In this document: piece by piece, positions 7,922 through 32,202 of the stretch | Numbering within the stretch: position 1 is the stretch's first letter | Layout: every line of letters begins with the position of its first letter | Origin: Candidatus Nomurabacteria bacterium RIFCSPHIGHO2_01_FULL_36_23 | GTDB taxonomy: Bacteria; Patescibacteriota; Minisyncoccia; Phycocordibacterales; UBA9973 | Reading direction: 5' to 3' | Length of the DNA: 39,506 bases | Assembly (NCBI GenBank): GCA_001786745.1 | Contig: MFTF01000012.1 | Coordinates: forward strand, 1-39,506 | Notes under the pieces: model-generated | Database searches by the model: none | What the model saw: the letters and a program-made list of their open reading frames with translations, nothing else | Told to the model about the DNA's origin: nothing | Position numbers and translations under genes: made by a program

Positions 7922-8881
7922 ATGAATATAGAAAAAATAAAAGAACATATCGATGATGTTTTAATAGAAACAAATTTTCTGGAACTCGGCGAAAAAAGGG
8001 TCGGAAAAGTCCGGGATATTTATGTTAAACCCGACCATATTACGCTTATTTCTACCGACAGGCACTCTTCTTTTGACAGAATTATCGCCTATGTGCCTTT
8101 TAAGGGCGAAGTATTAAATCAAATTAGTTTGTTTTGGTTTGAGAAAACAAAAGACATAATCCAAAATCATGTTTTAAGCAGTCCCGACCCAAATGTGGTT
8201 AAGGTGAAAAAATGCAAACCGCTCCCGATTGAATGCGTAATGCGCGGGTATATCACTGGCGTGACTTCCACCTCCCTTTGGATGCATTACAAAAACGGCA
8301 AACGGGATTTTGGCGATTTTACTTTGCCCGAGGGACTTAAAAAAAATCAAAAATTAGCCGAATCTGTTTTCACTCCGACCACAAAATCAGATGAACATGA
8401 CAGGTCAGTAACTCTTAAAGAAATTGTATCTGAAAAATTGCTTTCGCAAGAAATGACAGAAAAAATAGAACGAACAGCCAAGGCATTATTTAAAAGGGGA
8501 CAGGAGATAGCGCTCTCTTGTGGACTTATATTGGTGGACACAAAATATGAATTCGGATTAGATAAAGATGAAAAACTTACCCTCATTGATGAAATTCATA
8601 CGCCAGATTCATCGCGTTATTGGAAAATGGCAAGCTATGATGAACGTTTCAATAAAAATGAAGAACCGGAATATTTTGATAAAGAATTCCTGCGCTTGTG
8701 GTTTAAGGATAATTGCGACCCCTATAAAGACAAAACGCTTCCAAAAGCTCCGCCGCATCTTGTGGCTGAACTTTCTCGCCGATATATTGAGATATATGAA
8801 ACAATAACAGGTAAAAAATTTGATCATGATTTTTCACAGCTAATAATAGAAAGAATTAAAAATAATTTGTCTAAAAATTAA
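7922..8881 (+). CDS. purC: SAICAR synthase PurC
   Basis: Ligates aspartate to CAIR. Motifs: GKVRDIY, STDRHSSFDRII (usual SDRISAFD site), CVMRGYITGV, FTPTTKSDEHD and LIDEIHTPDSSRYW, all in the expected order. At 319 aa it is the long ADE1-like form rather than the ~240-aa Escherichia coli form. The TAA shares its last A with the ATG of purB (TAATG at 8879-8883), implying translational coupling. Confidence 0.96.
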   Translation: MNIEKIKEHIDDVLIETNFLELGEKRVGKVRDIYVKPDHITLISTDRHSSFDRIIAYVPFKGEVLNQISLFWFEKTKDIIQNHVLSSPDPNVVKVKKCKPLPIECVMRGYITGVTSTSLWMHYKNGKRDFGDFTLPEGLKKNQKLAESVFTPTTKSDEHDRSVTLKEIVSEKLLSQEMTEKIERTAKALFKRGQEIALSCGLILVDTKYEFGLDKDEKLTLIDEIHTPDSSRYWKMASYDERFNKNEEPEYFDKEFLRLWFKDNCDPYKDKTLPKAPPHLVAELSRRYIEIYETITGKKFDHDFSQLIIERIKNNLSKN

Positions 8882-10287
8882 TGCCTAGCATGATTTTGCT
8901 AAATCAAATGACAAAAGAGACGGTGGGAGGCGCCATAAATCCGCTAGATGGAAGATATTTTAAGAAAACCCGCGCGCTGGCGCCGTATTTTTCAGAAGAA
9001 GCGTTGATGAAATACAGATTAATGATGGAAGGGGAATACTTAATTGCTTTGTCGTTTTCTCGCAGGGTGGCTTTGCGTAAATTTACCTCCAAAGAAATAA
9101 AAATAATAAGGAATATTTATGAAAAATTTGACAATATTTCTTATAAAAAAATAAAAAATATAGAAGCAGTCACAAATCATGATGTCAAGGCGGTAGAATA
9201 CTTTATAAAAGAAAAATTGTCAAAGACATCTCTGGGAGACAGTATTGAATGGGTTCATTTTGCTCTCACCTCAGAAGACACAAATAATATCGCTTATGCG
9301 TTAATGCTCTCAGATTCTCTAGAATATGTTCTTGTACCTAGAATTAAAAAAATAGTTTTAGAATTGGATGTTTTGGCAAAAAAATACAAAAATTCGCCAA
9401 TGCTGGCGCGGACTCACGGACAAAGCGCTTCACCCACTACTTTTGGCAAAGAAATGAAAGTTTTTGCCGCTCGCCTTGAAAAAAAATTAAAGGAACTGGC
9501 AAAAATAAAAATACAAGCAAAATTAAATGGGGCTACCGGTAACTATAATGCTCATGTTATAGCTTATCCACAAGTAAATTGGTTGGAATTCAGTAAAAAA
9601 TTTATAAAAAGTTTTAATAAAAACCGTTCACAAAAACTTGAAACTAATTTAATCACTACTCAAATAGAAAGCCATGACAGTTATGTGGCAGTTTTTGATG
9701 CAATCAGAAGAATCAATACTATTTTAATTGATTTTAATCAAGATATATGGAGATACATTTCTGATAATTGGGTAACTCAAAAACCGAAAGCGGGAGAGAC
9801 GGGCTCATCAACAATGCCGCATAAAATAAATCCGATTGATTTTGAAAATAGCGAAGGAAATCTGGGGCTCGCTAATGCTTTATTTGAATTTTTTGCCCGC
9901 AAACTTCCAATTTCGCGACTACAACGCGATCTTTCGGATTCTACCGTAGAACGCGCTTTCGGCACGGCGCTGGGACATTCGCTTCTAGCTTATTTAATGT
10001 TGGAAAAAGGATTGGAAAAAATTAACGTAAATGAAATCAAAATAAAAGAGGATTTATTGGCGCATCCAGAAGTTATCGCCGAAGCGATCCAAACAATCTT
10101 GCGCCGAGAAAATTATCCTGTTCCCTATGAAATGCTTAAAGATTTAACTCGCGACAAACAAGTAACGATGCAAGATTTTGCTCAATTCATAGATACACTT
10201 AAAATTTCTCCAAAAGTAAAATTAGAACTTAAAAAAATAACACCCTTAAATTACACCGGGCTAGCTTCCAAACTTGCTTTAGGGTAG
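8881..10287 (+). CDS. purB: Adenylosuccinate lyase PurB
   Basis: Releases fumarate from SAICAR and from adenylosuccinate. NPLDGRYFKKT near the N-terminus, LARTHGQSASPTTFGKE with the catalytic histidine, and the fumarase/aspartase signature GSSTMPHKINP at about 301-311 are present, followed by LQRDLSDSTVERAFG. Length (468 aa) and motifs match the E. coli-type PurB. It is the last purine gene here; zinc-ribbon copy 2 follows. A start a few codons inside (MILLNQMTKE...) cannot be excluded, but the TAATG overlap favours 8881. Confidence 0.96.
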   Translation: MPSMILLNQMTKETVGGAINPLDGRYFKKTRALAPYFSEEALMKYRLMMEGEYLIALSFSRRVALRKFTSKEIKIIRNIYEKFDNISYKKIKNIEAVTNHDVKAVEYFIKEKLSKTSLGDSIEWVHFALTSEDTNNIAYALMLSDSLEYVLVPRIKKIVLELDVLAKKYKNSPMLARTHGQSASPTTFGKEMKVFAARLEKKLKELAKIKIQAKLNGATGNYNAHVIAYPQVNWLEFSKKFIKSFNKNRSQKLETNLITTQIESHDSYVAVFDAIRRINTILIDFNQDIWRYISDNWVTQKPKAGETGSSTMPHKINPIDFENSEGNLGLANALFEFFARKLPISRLQRDLSDSTVERAFGTALGHSLLAYLMLEKGLEKINVNEIKIKEDLLAHPEVIAEAIQTILRRENYPVPYEMLKDLTRDKQVTMQDFAQFIDTLKISPKVKLELKKITPLNYTGLASKLALG

Positions 10288-30060: not shown

Positions 30061-30405
30061 TTAATAAGCGCACTGCGCATCGATTTTTGCCGCAAGAATA
30101 AAATCGTTTTCGGAGAGACCGCCGATGGCGTGCGTGGAAAGTTTTAGCAAAACTTTGTTGTAGTGTATGTGAATATCCGGATGATGACCTTCTCTTTCTG
30201 CAATCTCTGCCACATTATTTACAAAATTAATCGCTCCGATAAAATCTTTGAACTTATATTCTTTGGAGATTTGTTTAACATCTTCGCTCAAAGTCCACTC
30301 GGAAACCTGTGCTATGTATTCCATGGCACTCGCACGGTCAAGTAGCTTGATTCCCCTCCCTTCGCAAGCAACACACATTTTCTTAAGTAAATTGTTTTTA
30401 CTCAT
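30061..30405 (-). CDS. 4a-hydroxytetrahydrobiopterin (pterin carbinolamine) dehydratase
   Basis: 114 aa PCD/DCoH family. The signature EGHHPDIHIHYNKV carries the catalytic histidines. W in EWTL and the C-terminal GGLSENDFILAAKIDA are conserved. An N-terminal CVACEG segment is typical of bacterial members. No aromatic amino acid hydroxylase is nearby, so a role in pterin recycling is not demonstrated; moonlighting in molybdopterin- or folate-related metabolism is possible. A TAAAAT box lies 6 nt upstream. A damaged copy of its 3' end is at 31648-31701. Confidence 0.9.
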   Translation of the reverse strand: MSKNNLLKKMCVACEGRGIKLLDRASAMEYIAQVSEWTLSEDVKQISKEYKFKDFIGAINFVNNVAEIAEREGHHPDIHIHYNKVLLKLSTHAIGGLSENDFILAAKIDAQCAY

Positions 30406-30417: not shown

Positions 30418-30502
30418 ACATTAATTTTAATTAAACCCAATTATTTACTAATGTAAGAAAATTTAATTAAAAAGTTTTCCACACCCCTATTATCTACTTT
30501 AC

Positions 30503-30531
30503 TTGACTAAAGTACTTTAGTTTGCTAAAGT
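30503..30531 (+). promoter_or_regulatory. Promoter and probable self-operator of the TrpR-like gene
   Basis: TTGACT (30503-30508), 17-nt spacer, TAAAGT (30526-30531), 6 nt to ATG. A perfect 16-nt palindrome, ACTAAAGTACTTTAGT (30506-30521), overlaps the -35, and a third half-site CTAAAGTA overlaps the -10. TrpR-family proteins bind short palindromes, so autoregulation is a natural inference. Confidence 0.65.
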
Positions 30532-30537
30532 AGCAGT

Positions 30538-30933
30538 ATGAGTAAAGGAATGAATAAAAATACATCAATTAGAGTTGTTAAACTGATTGAAGGAATAGGC
30601 CCAAAAATCGACTGGAATACAAAGACAAATAAACAACTCGTGGACGCTGTGTTAGCTATTAAAAATGCTGATGAAGCAAAGCGCTTCTTGCGTGACCTGA
30701 TGACTGAAAGTGAGATTGAAGAATTCGCCAATCGTCTTGAGACTGCTCGCCTACTCGTGGGGGATGTACAATATAATACCATTATTCAAAATACTGGCCT
30801 TTCTTCCACAACTATCGCCCGAATATCAAAATGGCTTAAGGGCTCGCTCGGTGGCTATCGTCTTATCCTCGCTCGTCTTTCGAACCATCATCACAACCGT
30901 CCTAAACTTGGGAAAGGGTTGTCTTTGAGTTGA
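30538..30933 (+). CDS. TrpR-like DNA-binding protein, YerC/YecD family
   Basis: 131 aa. The core (LRDLMTESEIEEFANRLETARLL...YNTIIQNTGLSSTTIARISKWL) is the helical Trp-repressor-like fold with a helix-turn-helix at about 85-108. An extra ~35-residue N-terminal part and a basic His/Lys-rich tail are present. It precedes hisI on the same strand, with the hisI promoter overlapping its 3' end. The palindromic operator in its own promoter fits a repressor. No trp or other his genes are visible. Base composition is richer in G+C than in most neighbours. Confidence 0.88.
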   Translation: MSKGMNKNTSIRVVKLIEGIGPKIDWNTKTNKQLVDAVLAIKNADEAKRFLRDLMTESEIEEFANRLETARLLVGDVQYNTIIQNTGLSSTTIARISKWLKGSLGGYRLILARLSNHHHNRPKLGKGLSLS

Positions 30934-30942
30934 TATTTATTT

Positions 30943-31021
30943 TATAATTATTTTTCGAAACCAACCCCTTCTCAAGTTTGAGAAGGGGTTTAAATTTGTT
31001 CTTTGAAAGGAAGGAAAACCA
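30943..31021 (+). promoter_or_regulatory. hisI promoter and structured leader with Shine-Dalgarno
   Basis: TATAAT at 30943-30948 (TTGTCT 18 nt before it) is followed by a perfect 13-bp hairpin, AACCCCTTCTCAA with TTGAGAAGGGGTT (30963-30990), and then GTTCTTTGAAAGGAAGG, a clear purine-rich ribosome site ending 7-8 nt before ATG. The last 24 nt match the leader of the 113-aa gene at 35630 in 19 positions with identical spacing. The hairpin may also terminate the trpR-like transcript. Confidence 0.65.
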
Positions 31022-31399
31022 ATGATCGTCAAAGTAAATTGCATTCAACCTGACTTTACAAAACAGGGCGGGTTGATACCAGTGATCATCCAAAAACACA
31101 ACCAAGAGCAGAGAGGCGAAGTTTTGATGCTTGCCTATTCTAATAGTGAGGCCTATAATCTGACCAAAAAAACTGGATTAGTTCACTTCTGGTCACGTTC
31201 CAGAAAAAAACTCTGGAAGAAAGGAGAAACGTCTGGCAATCTATTGGTAGTAAGACAGATTTGGATGGATTGTGATCAAGACACTCTACTCTACGTAGTT
31301 ACTCCAAGGGGAACAGTATGTCATTTAGAAAAAAGTAGCTGTTTTTCCCAAGTTACTTATGTGGCGGGGGAAGAAATCGGGACAGTCTATACCACCTAA
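31022..31399 (+). CDS. hisI: Phosphoribosyl-AMP cyclohydrolase HisI
   Basis: Third step of histidine synthesis (opens the adenine ring of PR-AMP). GEVLMLAYSN, HFWSRSRKKLWKKGETSGN and the metal site MDCDQDTLLYVV with downstream CHLEKSSCF are diagnostic. 125 aa: cyclohydrolase domain only, without a HisE fusion. No other his gene is in the window, so it is either a stand-alone remnant, linked to his genes elsewhere, or used for another substrate. Unlike most genes here it has a Shine-Dalgarno leader and higher G+C. Confidence 0.95.
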   Translation: MIVKVNCIQPDFTKQGGLIPVIIQKHNQEQRGEVLMLAYSNSEAYNLTKKTGLVHFWSRSRKKLWKKGETSGNLLVVRQIWMDCDQDTLLYVVTPRGTVCHLEKSSCFSQVTYVAGEEIGTVYTT

Positions 31400-31610
31400 A
31401 CTGGAATGAGAATTGCAGACCCGTATGAGCAATCATGCGGGTGGAAGCAGATATCGGCAACAGAGAGGGTTGAAGTGAGATCAATAAGTATGGCAACCCA
31501 TGACCGTTTTATGGTGTGGTCTCAGCACCCCACCAGATAGAGGTAGTGAAAAGTTGCTCGGAGTAACAAGGGGTAGAATTGTCTGAACAACAATCTGCCC
31601 CTTCAATATT
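31400..31610 (+). ncRNA. Candidate structured RNA or 3' UTR downstream of hisI
   Basis: About 210 untranslated bases. Helices seen by eye: 31419-31427 with 31434-31442 (9 bp around a 6-nt loop, one wobble); GGGTTG 31467-31472 with CAACCC 31494-31499; TGAGATCA 31476-31483 with TGGTCTCA 31517-31524 (8 bp, one wobble), which interleaves with the previous helix as a pseudoknot; an alternative GGTGTGGT/ACCCCACC hairpin; and a final terminator stem. It matches no RNA class I can recognise (not tmRNA, SRP RNA, RNase P RNA or a tRNA). No gene follows on this strand, so a cis riboswitch is unlikely. Confidence 0.5.
31568..31603 (+). terminator. Terminator-like hairpin ending the hisI transcript
   Basis: AAGGGGTAGAATTGT pairs with AACAATCTGCCCCTT over nearly its full length with one bulge and one mismatch or wobble. 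A T-rich but interrupted tract (ATATTTCTATTCTAT) follows. Confidence 0.6.
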
Positions 31611-31647
31611 TCTATTCTATAATTCTATAGAATATTAGAATACTATT

Positions 31648-31701
31648 TTAAGTATGCGCGTCGATTTTGGCCGCAAGAATGAAATCATTTACGGCACGCA
31701 T
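31648..31701 (-). pseudogene. Remnant of a second pterin dehydratase 3' end
   Basis: The minus strand encodes NDFILAAKIDAHT followed by TAA, matching the end of the intact dehydratase (NDFILAAKIDAQCAY). Over 40 nt (31655-31694 against 30074-30113) I count 35 identical bases. The rest of the gene is missing. It lies just beyond the stop of ribH on the same strand. Confidence 0.8.
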
Positions 31702-31731
31702 CTTTTCCTCAATAAATTACTCATTAATTTT

Positions 31732-32202
31732 TTATTTAATTAAACCAAGTTCAAGCGCGGCTAAAGTCGCCTGGCCTCCGACATGAATTCTCTCTTTGGC
31801 TTGTTTTAAATTATTAACGGTCAGAATCCCAAAACCGACAGGGATATTATCTTCAATCATAACTTTTAAAACTCCCCCTTGCGCCATCTTACAGATATAA
31901 TCAAAATGCGGAGTATCTCCGCGAATAATGCATCCAAGCGCGACCAAAAAGTCATATTTTTTACTGAGCGCCATTTTGTGCAGAGCGAAAGGAATCTCAA
32001 ATGCCCCAGAGACATGGATAATTCTGATATTCTTTATCTTTACTTTACATTTTTTAAGATCAACCAGAGCATCGCTTAAAAGCTTTTCCGTGATTTCACC
32101 ATTCCACCGAGCCACGACAATGCCAGCTTTTAATTTGCTTCCGTCAAAATATTTTTTATTTTTATTTTTTGTTTGCATATGCATATTTAGCAAGTATGTC
32201 AA
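31732..32202 (-). CDS. ribH: 6,7-dimethyl-8-ribityllumazine synthase RibH
   Basis: Penultimate step of riboflavin synthesis. VARWN near the N-terminus, HVSGAFEIPFA, GCIIRGDTPHFDYI with the catalytic His, and PVGFGILTVNN are all conserved. 156 aa is normal. The ORF overlaps ribE by 41 nt; ATGs at 32184 and 32178 would shorten the overlap and are equally plausible. Last gene of an aspS-ribF-ribE-ribH run. Confidence 0.95.
   Translation of the reverse strand: MTYLLNMHMQTKNKNKKYFDGSKLKAGIVVARWNGEITEKLLSDALVDLKKCKVKIKNIRIIHVSGAFEIPFALHKMALSKKYDFLVALGCIIRGDTPHFDYICKMAQGGVLKVMIEDNIPVGFGILTVNNLKQAKERIHVGGQATLAALELGLIK

Follow-up and report, generated by a model that had tools for sequence, protein, structure and literature searches.

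Judged from its sequence, the segment between the two copies of a pterin-4a-carbinolamine dehydratase (PCD) gene in the window (the whole 39.5-kb stretch of DNA analysed here) is quite probably a resident histidine operon with the order operator-hisR-attenuator-hisI, a grading that covers the history of the PCD copies and the attenuator mechanism proposed below as well. We infer that the 3' end of hisR would supply a histidine attenuator with its leader peptide. The genes and sites concerned are:

30061..30405, minus strand: intact PCD, 114 aa (Pfam PF01329, E 4e-31), displaced across the hisR unit
30494..30533, no strand: two overlapping HisR-type operators, CTTTA-N6-TAAAG
30538..30933, plus strand: hisR, 131 aa with a 17-residue His-rich tail, TrpR family, YerC/YecD type (PF01371, 66.7 bits)
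31022..31399, plus strand: hisI-like phosphoribosyl-AMP cyclohydrolase gene, 125 aa (PF01502, E 4e-32)
31648..31724, minus strand: PCD pseudogene, both halves aligning to the PCD ends of relatives, with a premature TAA
31732..32202, minus strand: ribH, upstream neighbour of the PCD pseudogene

The hisR product passes the YerC/YecD model TIGR02531 with 63.3 bits (cut-off 42.2) and fails the TrpR equivalog model (25 vs 67.25 needed). In the HisR regulon study, YerC is the HisR repressor of Firmicutes and its operator motif is given as cacTTTAnnnnnnTAAAgtg (PMC9413887). Sites of the form CTTTA-N6-TAAAG, which match this motif, occur exactly twice in the window, both just before hisR. A close variant was found upstream of hisR in all of the 21 hisR loci scanned (two of these with three mismatches), and no operator was seen in the 20 loci that lack hisR, except for two weak three-mismatch matches. 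Six loci (L083, L085, L090, L093, L094, L097) carry a second operator copy at the distal end of the hisR unit, by the 3' end of PCD. Beside the operator, a DnaA-box-like stretch, TGTGGATAA, is kept in most loci and lies at 30455-30490 in the window.

Histidine genes accompany hisR elsewhere too. The hisI product scores just below the NCBIfam hisI cut-off (124.4 vs 126). Within the genus, hisG was found in 3 of 80 genomes and a confident hisI in 2 of 80 (that of the window and G008), and all five stand beside hisR; a third hisI match, in G016, has an E-value of 6e-4 with two internal stops and is probably spurious. Beyond the genus, hisR is followed by hisG-hisD-hisC (L223), hisG-hisI (L215, L241), the histidine ammonia-lyase gene hutH (L232) or a histidine-racemase-like gene (L233). 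For many other genes that follow hisR, a connection with histidine is not obvious (LOG/SLOG proteins, radical SAM, GNAT, unknowns).

The frame of HisR closes with SNHHHNRPKLGKGLSLS and the stop codon, and the elements of the putative attenuator are arranged around this end:

30886..30894, plus strand: control codons CAT CAT CAC (His-His-His) in the hisR tail
30905..30929, plus strand: antiterminator strand A, within the hisR reading frame
30954..30978 (about), plus strand: strand B, pairing with A (antiterminator) or with C (terminator)
30963..30991, plus strand: terminator hairpin B:C between hisR and hisI, with B as its 5' arm

The tandem His codons thus stand just before the antiterminator strand (HHH at 30886-30894, A from 30905). 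The helices A:B and B:C are mutually exclusive as both use strand B, and both covary. The layout fits the classical scheme, in which a ribosome stalled at the His codons would leave most of A free and a ribosome at the stop codon would cover it. No short dedicated leader peptide gene is present at the locus; since the 3' part of the full 131-codon hisR would itself serve as leader, the element would be a variant of the translation-coupled histidine attenuator.

This anatomy, the covariation and the codon bias are direct results of the computation. In the alignment A1 of 24 loci the A:B helix was 94% paired with nine pairs changed on both sides (24 cells vs a shuffled mean of 5.2, 0/500), and the B:C helix was likewise 94% paired with six such pairs (13 cells vs 2.8 shuffled, 0/500); these shuffles ignore relatedness, which is accounted for by the slid-structure control. 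When the partner was slid by one column, A:B pairing fell to 63-65%, and the control was a clear pass for A:B and less sharp for B:C (+1 slide). Redrawing synonymous codons with the protein kept made A:B much weaker, with z = -3.7 in the window and, over 51 loci, a median z of -2.4 with 61% of loci below -2. The bias was absent in several distant loci (L215, L232, L237, L245, L248), where attenuation may be different or lost.

The tails themselves are strongly enriched in histidine, which makes up 96 of 640 residues (15%) compared with 15 of 4451 (0.34%) in the HisR cores, and a few tails have one His only (L043, L045, L048). His-rich tail and terminator co-occur (28/3/5/12, Fisher p = 2.6e-5) in a survey that, like the synonymous-codon test per locus, shares loci with the alignment and is therefore not fully independent of it. 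HisR proteins that lack the tail also lack the terminator, both within the genus (L049, L057) and outside it (L138, L140-L143; L139 is His-tailed), with L144 and L150 as exceptions by the simple hairpin criterion.

The regulatory response to histidine that we infer from these features would proceed as follows. When histidine is plentiful, HisR would repress its own promoter. On transcripts that had nevertheless started, the ribosome would pass the three His codons and reach the hisR stop codon, thereby covering strand A, so that the B:C terminator would form and transcription would stop before hisI. When charged tRNA-His is short, HisR would leave the operator and ribosomes would stall at the His codons of the hisR tail; A would then pair with B, the terminator could not form and hisI would be transcribed. 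The repressor gene would in this way double as an attenuator leader peptide.

Directly after hisI the transcript would continue into a G+C-rich, strongly folded stretch, followed by a repeat:

31400..31612, plus strand: structured transcript tail (z = -4.85), ending in its own terminator-like hairpin
31605..31645, no strand: dispersed palindrome, TATTCTATAATTCTATAGAATATTAGAATA, roughly 35 bp long, which L082 and L093 also carry immediately 3' of PCD

A search of 31398-31645 against 296 genomes of relatives at the DNA level matched the terminal palindrome only, so no relative of the structured RNA was found among them. Rfam gave no match for the window or for 31380-31760, an exact 25-mer of the structured tail had none in viral contigs, and the window contains no tRNA or tmRNA. 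The palindrome TATTCTATAATTCTATAGAATATTAGAATA is dispersed through the family and the order with up to 100% identity and is often paired about 250-290 bp apart. The structured stretch also bears on the claim that the whole segment is richer in G+C, which holds only weakly for the genes (hisR 41.4% and hisI 40.7% vs 40.3% for the intact PCD and 39.5% for metK); only the stretch after hisI stands out, with 46.5%.

The original prediction started from a repeat of the 3' end of the dehydratase gene beyond the hisR unit, and this repeat is real: 30074-30113 and 31655-31694 are identical in 35 of 40 bases (88%), while the next-best same-strand match within the window reaches 24/40 and the best match in 200 shuffled windows 26/40. 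The peptide NDFILAAKIDA is indeed retained in the remnant, and there are, as had been proposed, two PCD copies of which one is broken; the dead copy adjoins ribH. The remnant had been taken for a 3' end only, and here its extent has to be corrected: the part noted previously matches the 3' ends of the PCD genes of relatives, but 31691-31724 matches their 5' ends, so that both ends survive and the correct span is 31648-31724. What is left are 77 bp of a gene of about 333-345 bp, starting 7 bp after ribH, in which an internal deletion of about 255-268 bp joins both gene ends out of frame. On the minus strand from 31724 the remnant begins ATG AGT AAT TTA TTG AGG AAA AGA TGC GTG CCG/TAA ATGATTTCATT; it encodes MSNLLRKRCVP and a stop, and then, out of frame, VNDFILAAKIDAHT and a stop (out of frame after TAA, AATGATTTCATTCTTGCGGCCAAAATCGACGCGCATACTTAA). 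With the catalytic core deleted and the frame broken after 11 codons, it is a pseudogene, and a functional short open reading frame, which the original prediction had named as evidence against itself, was rejected. The triplet CCG stands at both deletion edges in relatives, which would fit joining at a 3-base microhomology, although this is weak evidence. Four of the five differences between the remnant and the intact PCD are synonymous third-position changes and the fifth lies at the deletion junction; that only synonymous differences occur outside the junction suggests that both genes were under selection until recently.

By sequence and position, the remnant is a dead pterin-4a-carbinolamine dehydratase gene in its usual slot. 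We mapped the PCD/hisR locus in 40 same-genus stretches, where the usual order is aspS-ribF-(ribE-ribH)-(RibBA-like or transporter)-PCD> <genes <trpR-like, then pepN, scpA. In all 13 same-genus loci holding both genes (L081-L090, L093, L097, L099) PCD occupies the rib side, with the trpR-like gene just beyond and pointing at PCD, and the hisI/trpR-like pair of the window points at the PCD remnant in the same way. In G008 (L081) the order is PCD> <hisI <trpR-like with an intact PCD. The adjacency of ribH and the dehydratase gene, which had been suggested as a check, is found intact in two relatives (L115, L117), while others have ribH, a RibBA-like gene and then PCD. A RibBA-like protein from L110 found no match in the genome of the window (G000; 0.56 Mb, 94% complete) in a search that had no positive control; ribF, ribE and ribH are present there. 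In L085 a biopterin-dependent aromatic amino acid hydroxylase gene (8365-9159, PF00351) stands behind hisR and adjoins PCD, which is the enzyme recycling the cofactor of that hydroxylase.

The odd gene out is therefore the intact PCD of the window, which lies beyond the trpR-like gene, with metK and lutC as neighbours. Because the remnant occupies the usual rib-side slot and the intact copy is displaced, we read the remnant as the old PCD, which died after a second one had been gained: an internal deletion would have inactivated the original dehydratase gene of the riboflavin cluster once a second, functional PCD was in place across the hisR unit. This order of events is read from synteny only, since a tree cannot place a fragment of 77 bp. 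The region upstream of the intact PCD gives no clue to its origin, as only the operator and the TGTGGATAA stretch are conserved upstream of hisR. Since the unit keeps its position and orientation with respect to PCD in 13 of 13 relatives that have both genes, the proposal that the trpR-like/hisI segment is an inserted island finds no support. An island flanked by att sites was likewise rejected, since the repeated sequence belongs to the ends of coding regions, relatives show the unit in synteny and the surroundings revealed no integrase.

A different history, which is a modified form of the original insertion idea, would have the hisR unit imported together with a flanking PCD copy, by recombination with a relative, beside a resident PCD-metK-lutC, after which the imported PCD decayed. 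One locus without a hisR unit (L101) has PCD directly before lutC, so that PCD-metK-lutC could be the resident order, and the congruence of gene distances within the genus is weak (Mantel r 0.2-0.4), too weak to separate a resident from an imported origin. We nevertheless regard import as rather unlikely, as the unit is in the same place in 13/13 relatives with both genes, the adjacency of remnant and ribH mirrors ribH-PCD in L115 and L117, and the window differs from L082 (PCD> <x <hisR ... lutC> <pepN) only by PCD and metK between hisR and lutC. That the remnant arose as an error in assembling a genome from a metagenome seems very improbable. The relatives are metagenome-assembled genomes, and one of them (L094:10110-10265, G052) has a 156-N gap in the middle of PCD, which nearly coincides with the portion missing from the remnant in the window; the window, however, contains no N run, normal sequence flanks the remnant on both sides (ribH and the hisR unit), and the codons of the remnant differ from those of the intact copy, so that it is not a misplaced piece of that gene.

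As to the attenuator, the His-rich tail might simply belong to the protein, for instance as a metal site of HisR, followed by an ordinary terminator without attenuation. His clusters do bind metals and the tail is translated within HisR, yet the terminator is missing behind tail-less HisR proteins (L049, L057 and L138-L143 except for the His-tailed L139), and a terminator inside an operon needs a bypass. Moreover, the tail codons are tuned to pair and covary with the terminator even where the sequence has changed (L050, L139), so that we consider a purely protein-level role of the tail improbable.

Our searches covered the family, the order and 84,980 GTDB species genomes. An operator followed by hisR with two to five His residues in its tail and a terminator recurs in Nomura-, Doudna-, Falkow-, Gribaldo-, Staskawicz-, Magasanik-, Moran-, Uhr-, Roizman- and Berkelbacteria and others. 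From these sequence patterns we think it likely that across Patescibacteria hisR doubles as the leader peptide of its own operon, one frame providing operator repression and codon sensing, and that in reduced genomes the device stayed in place while the downstream genes were either reduced to a single hisI or hisG or replaced by other genes. There is less certainty about the mechanism where the A:B codon bias is missing, as in the five distant loci named above. If true, this would give the tiny-genome CPR bacteria a clear regulatory logic, with repressor and leader peptide in one compact gene, and a handle on genes under histidine control, including the otherwise solitary hisI and hisG; the PCD remnant by itself is ordinary gene decay.

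HisR itself, histidine attenuators and operons that begin with hisR are already known (PMC9413887). As far as consulted, that paper does not describe a leader peptide encoded by the last codons of hisR, nor does it contain the word Patescibacteria, and our literature search, which covered open-licence papers only, found no report of attenuation in these bacteria. The HisR (YerC) regulon of Firmicutes and others is alike in its TrpR-family repressor, its CTTTA-N6-TAAAG operators and in that hisR can lead a his operon, but His attenuators are reported there in groups without HisR (PMC9413887). The hisL attenuators of Proteobacteria share the run of His codons followed by alternative antiterminator and terminator structures. 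There, hisL is a short stand-alone peptide, unlike the leader proposed here, which would be the C-terminus of a repressor. The trp operon of E. coli, with TrpR and trpL, likewise combines TrpR-family repression with codon-based attenuation; trpR and trpL are separate genes, whereas here one reading frame would serve both roles. In E. coli, the rph-pyrE attenuator has for its leader the 3' end of a complete gene lying upstream, as proposed for hisR, but that system senses UTP via polymerase speed and rph is not a regulator, while hisR is a regulator gene whose 3' end would sense charged tRNA.
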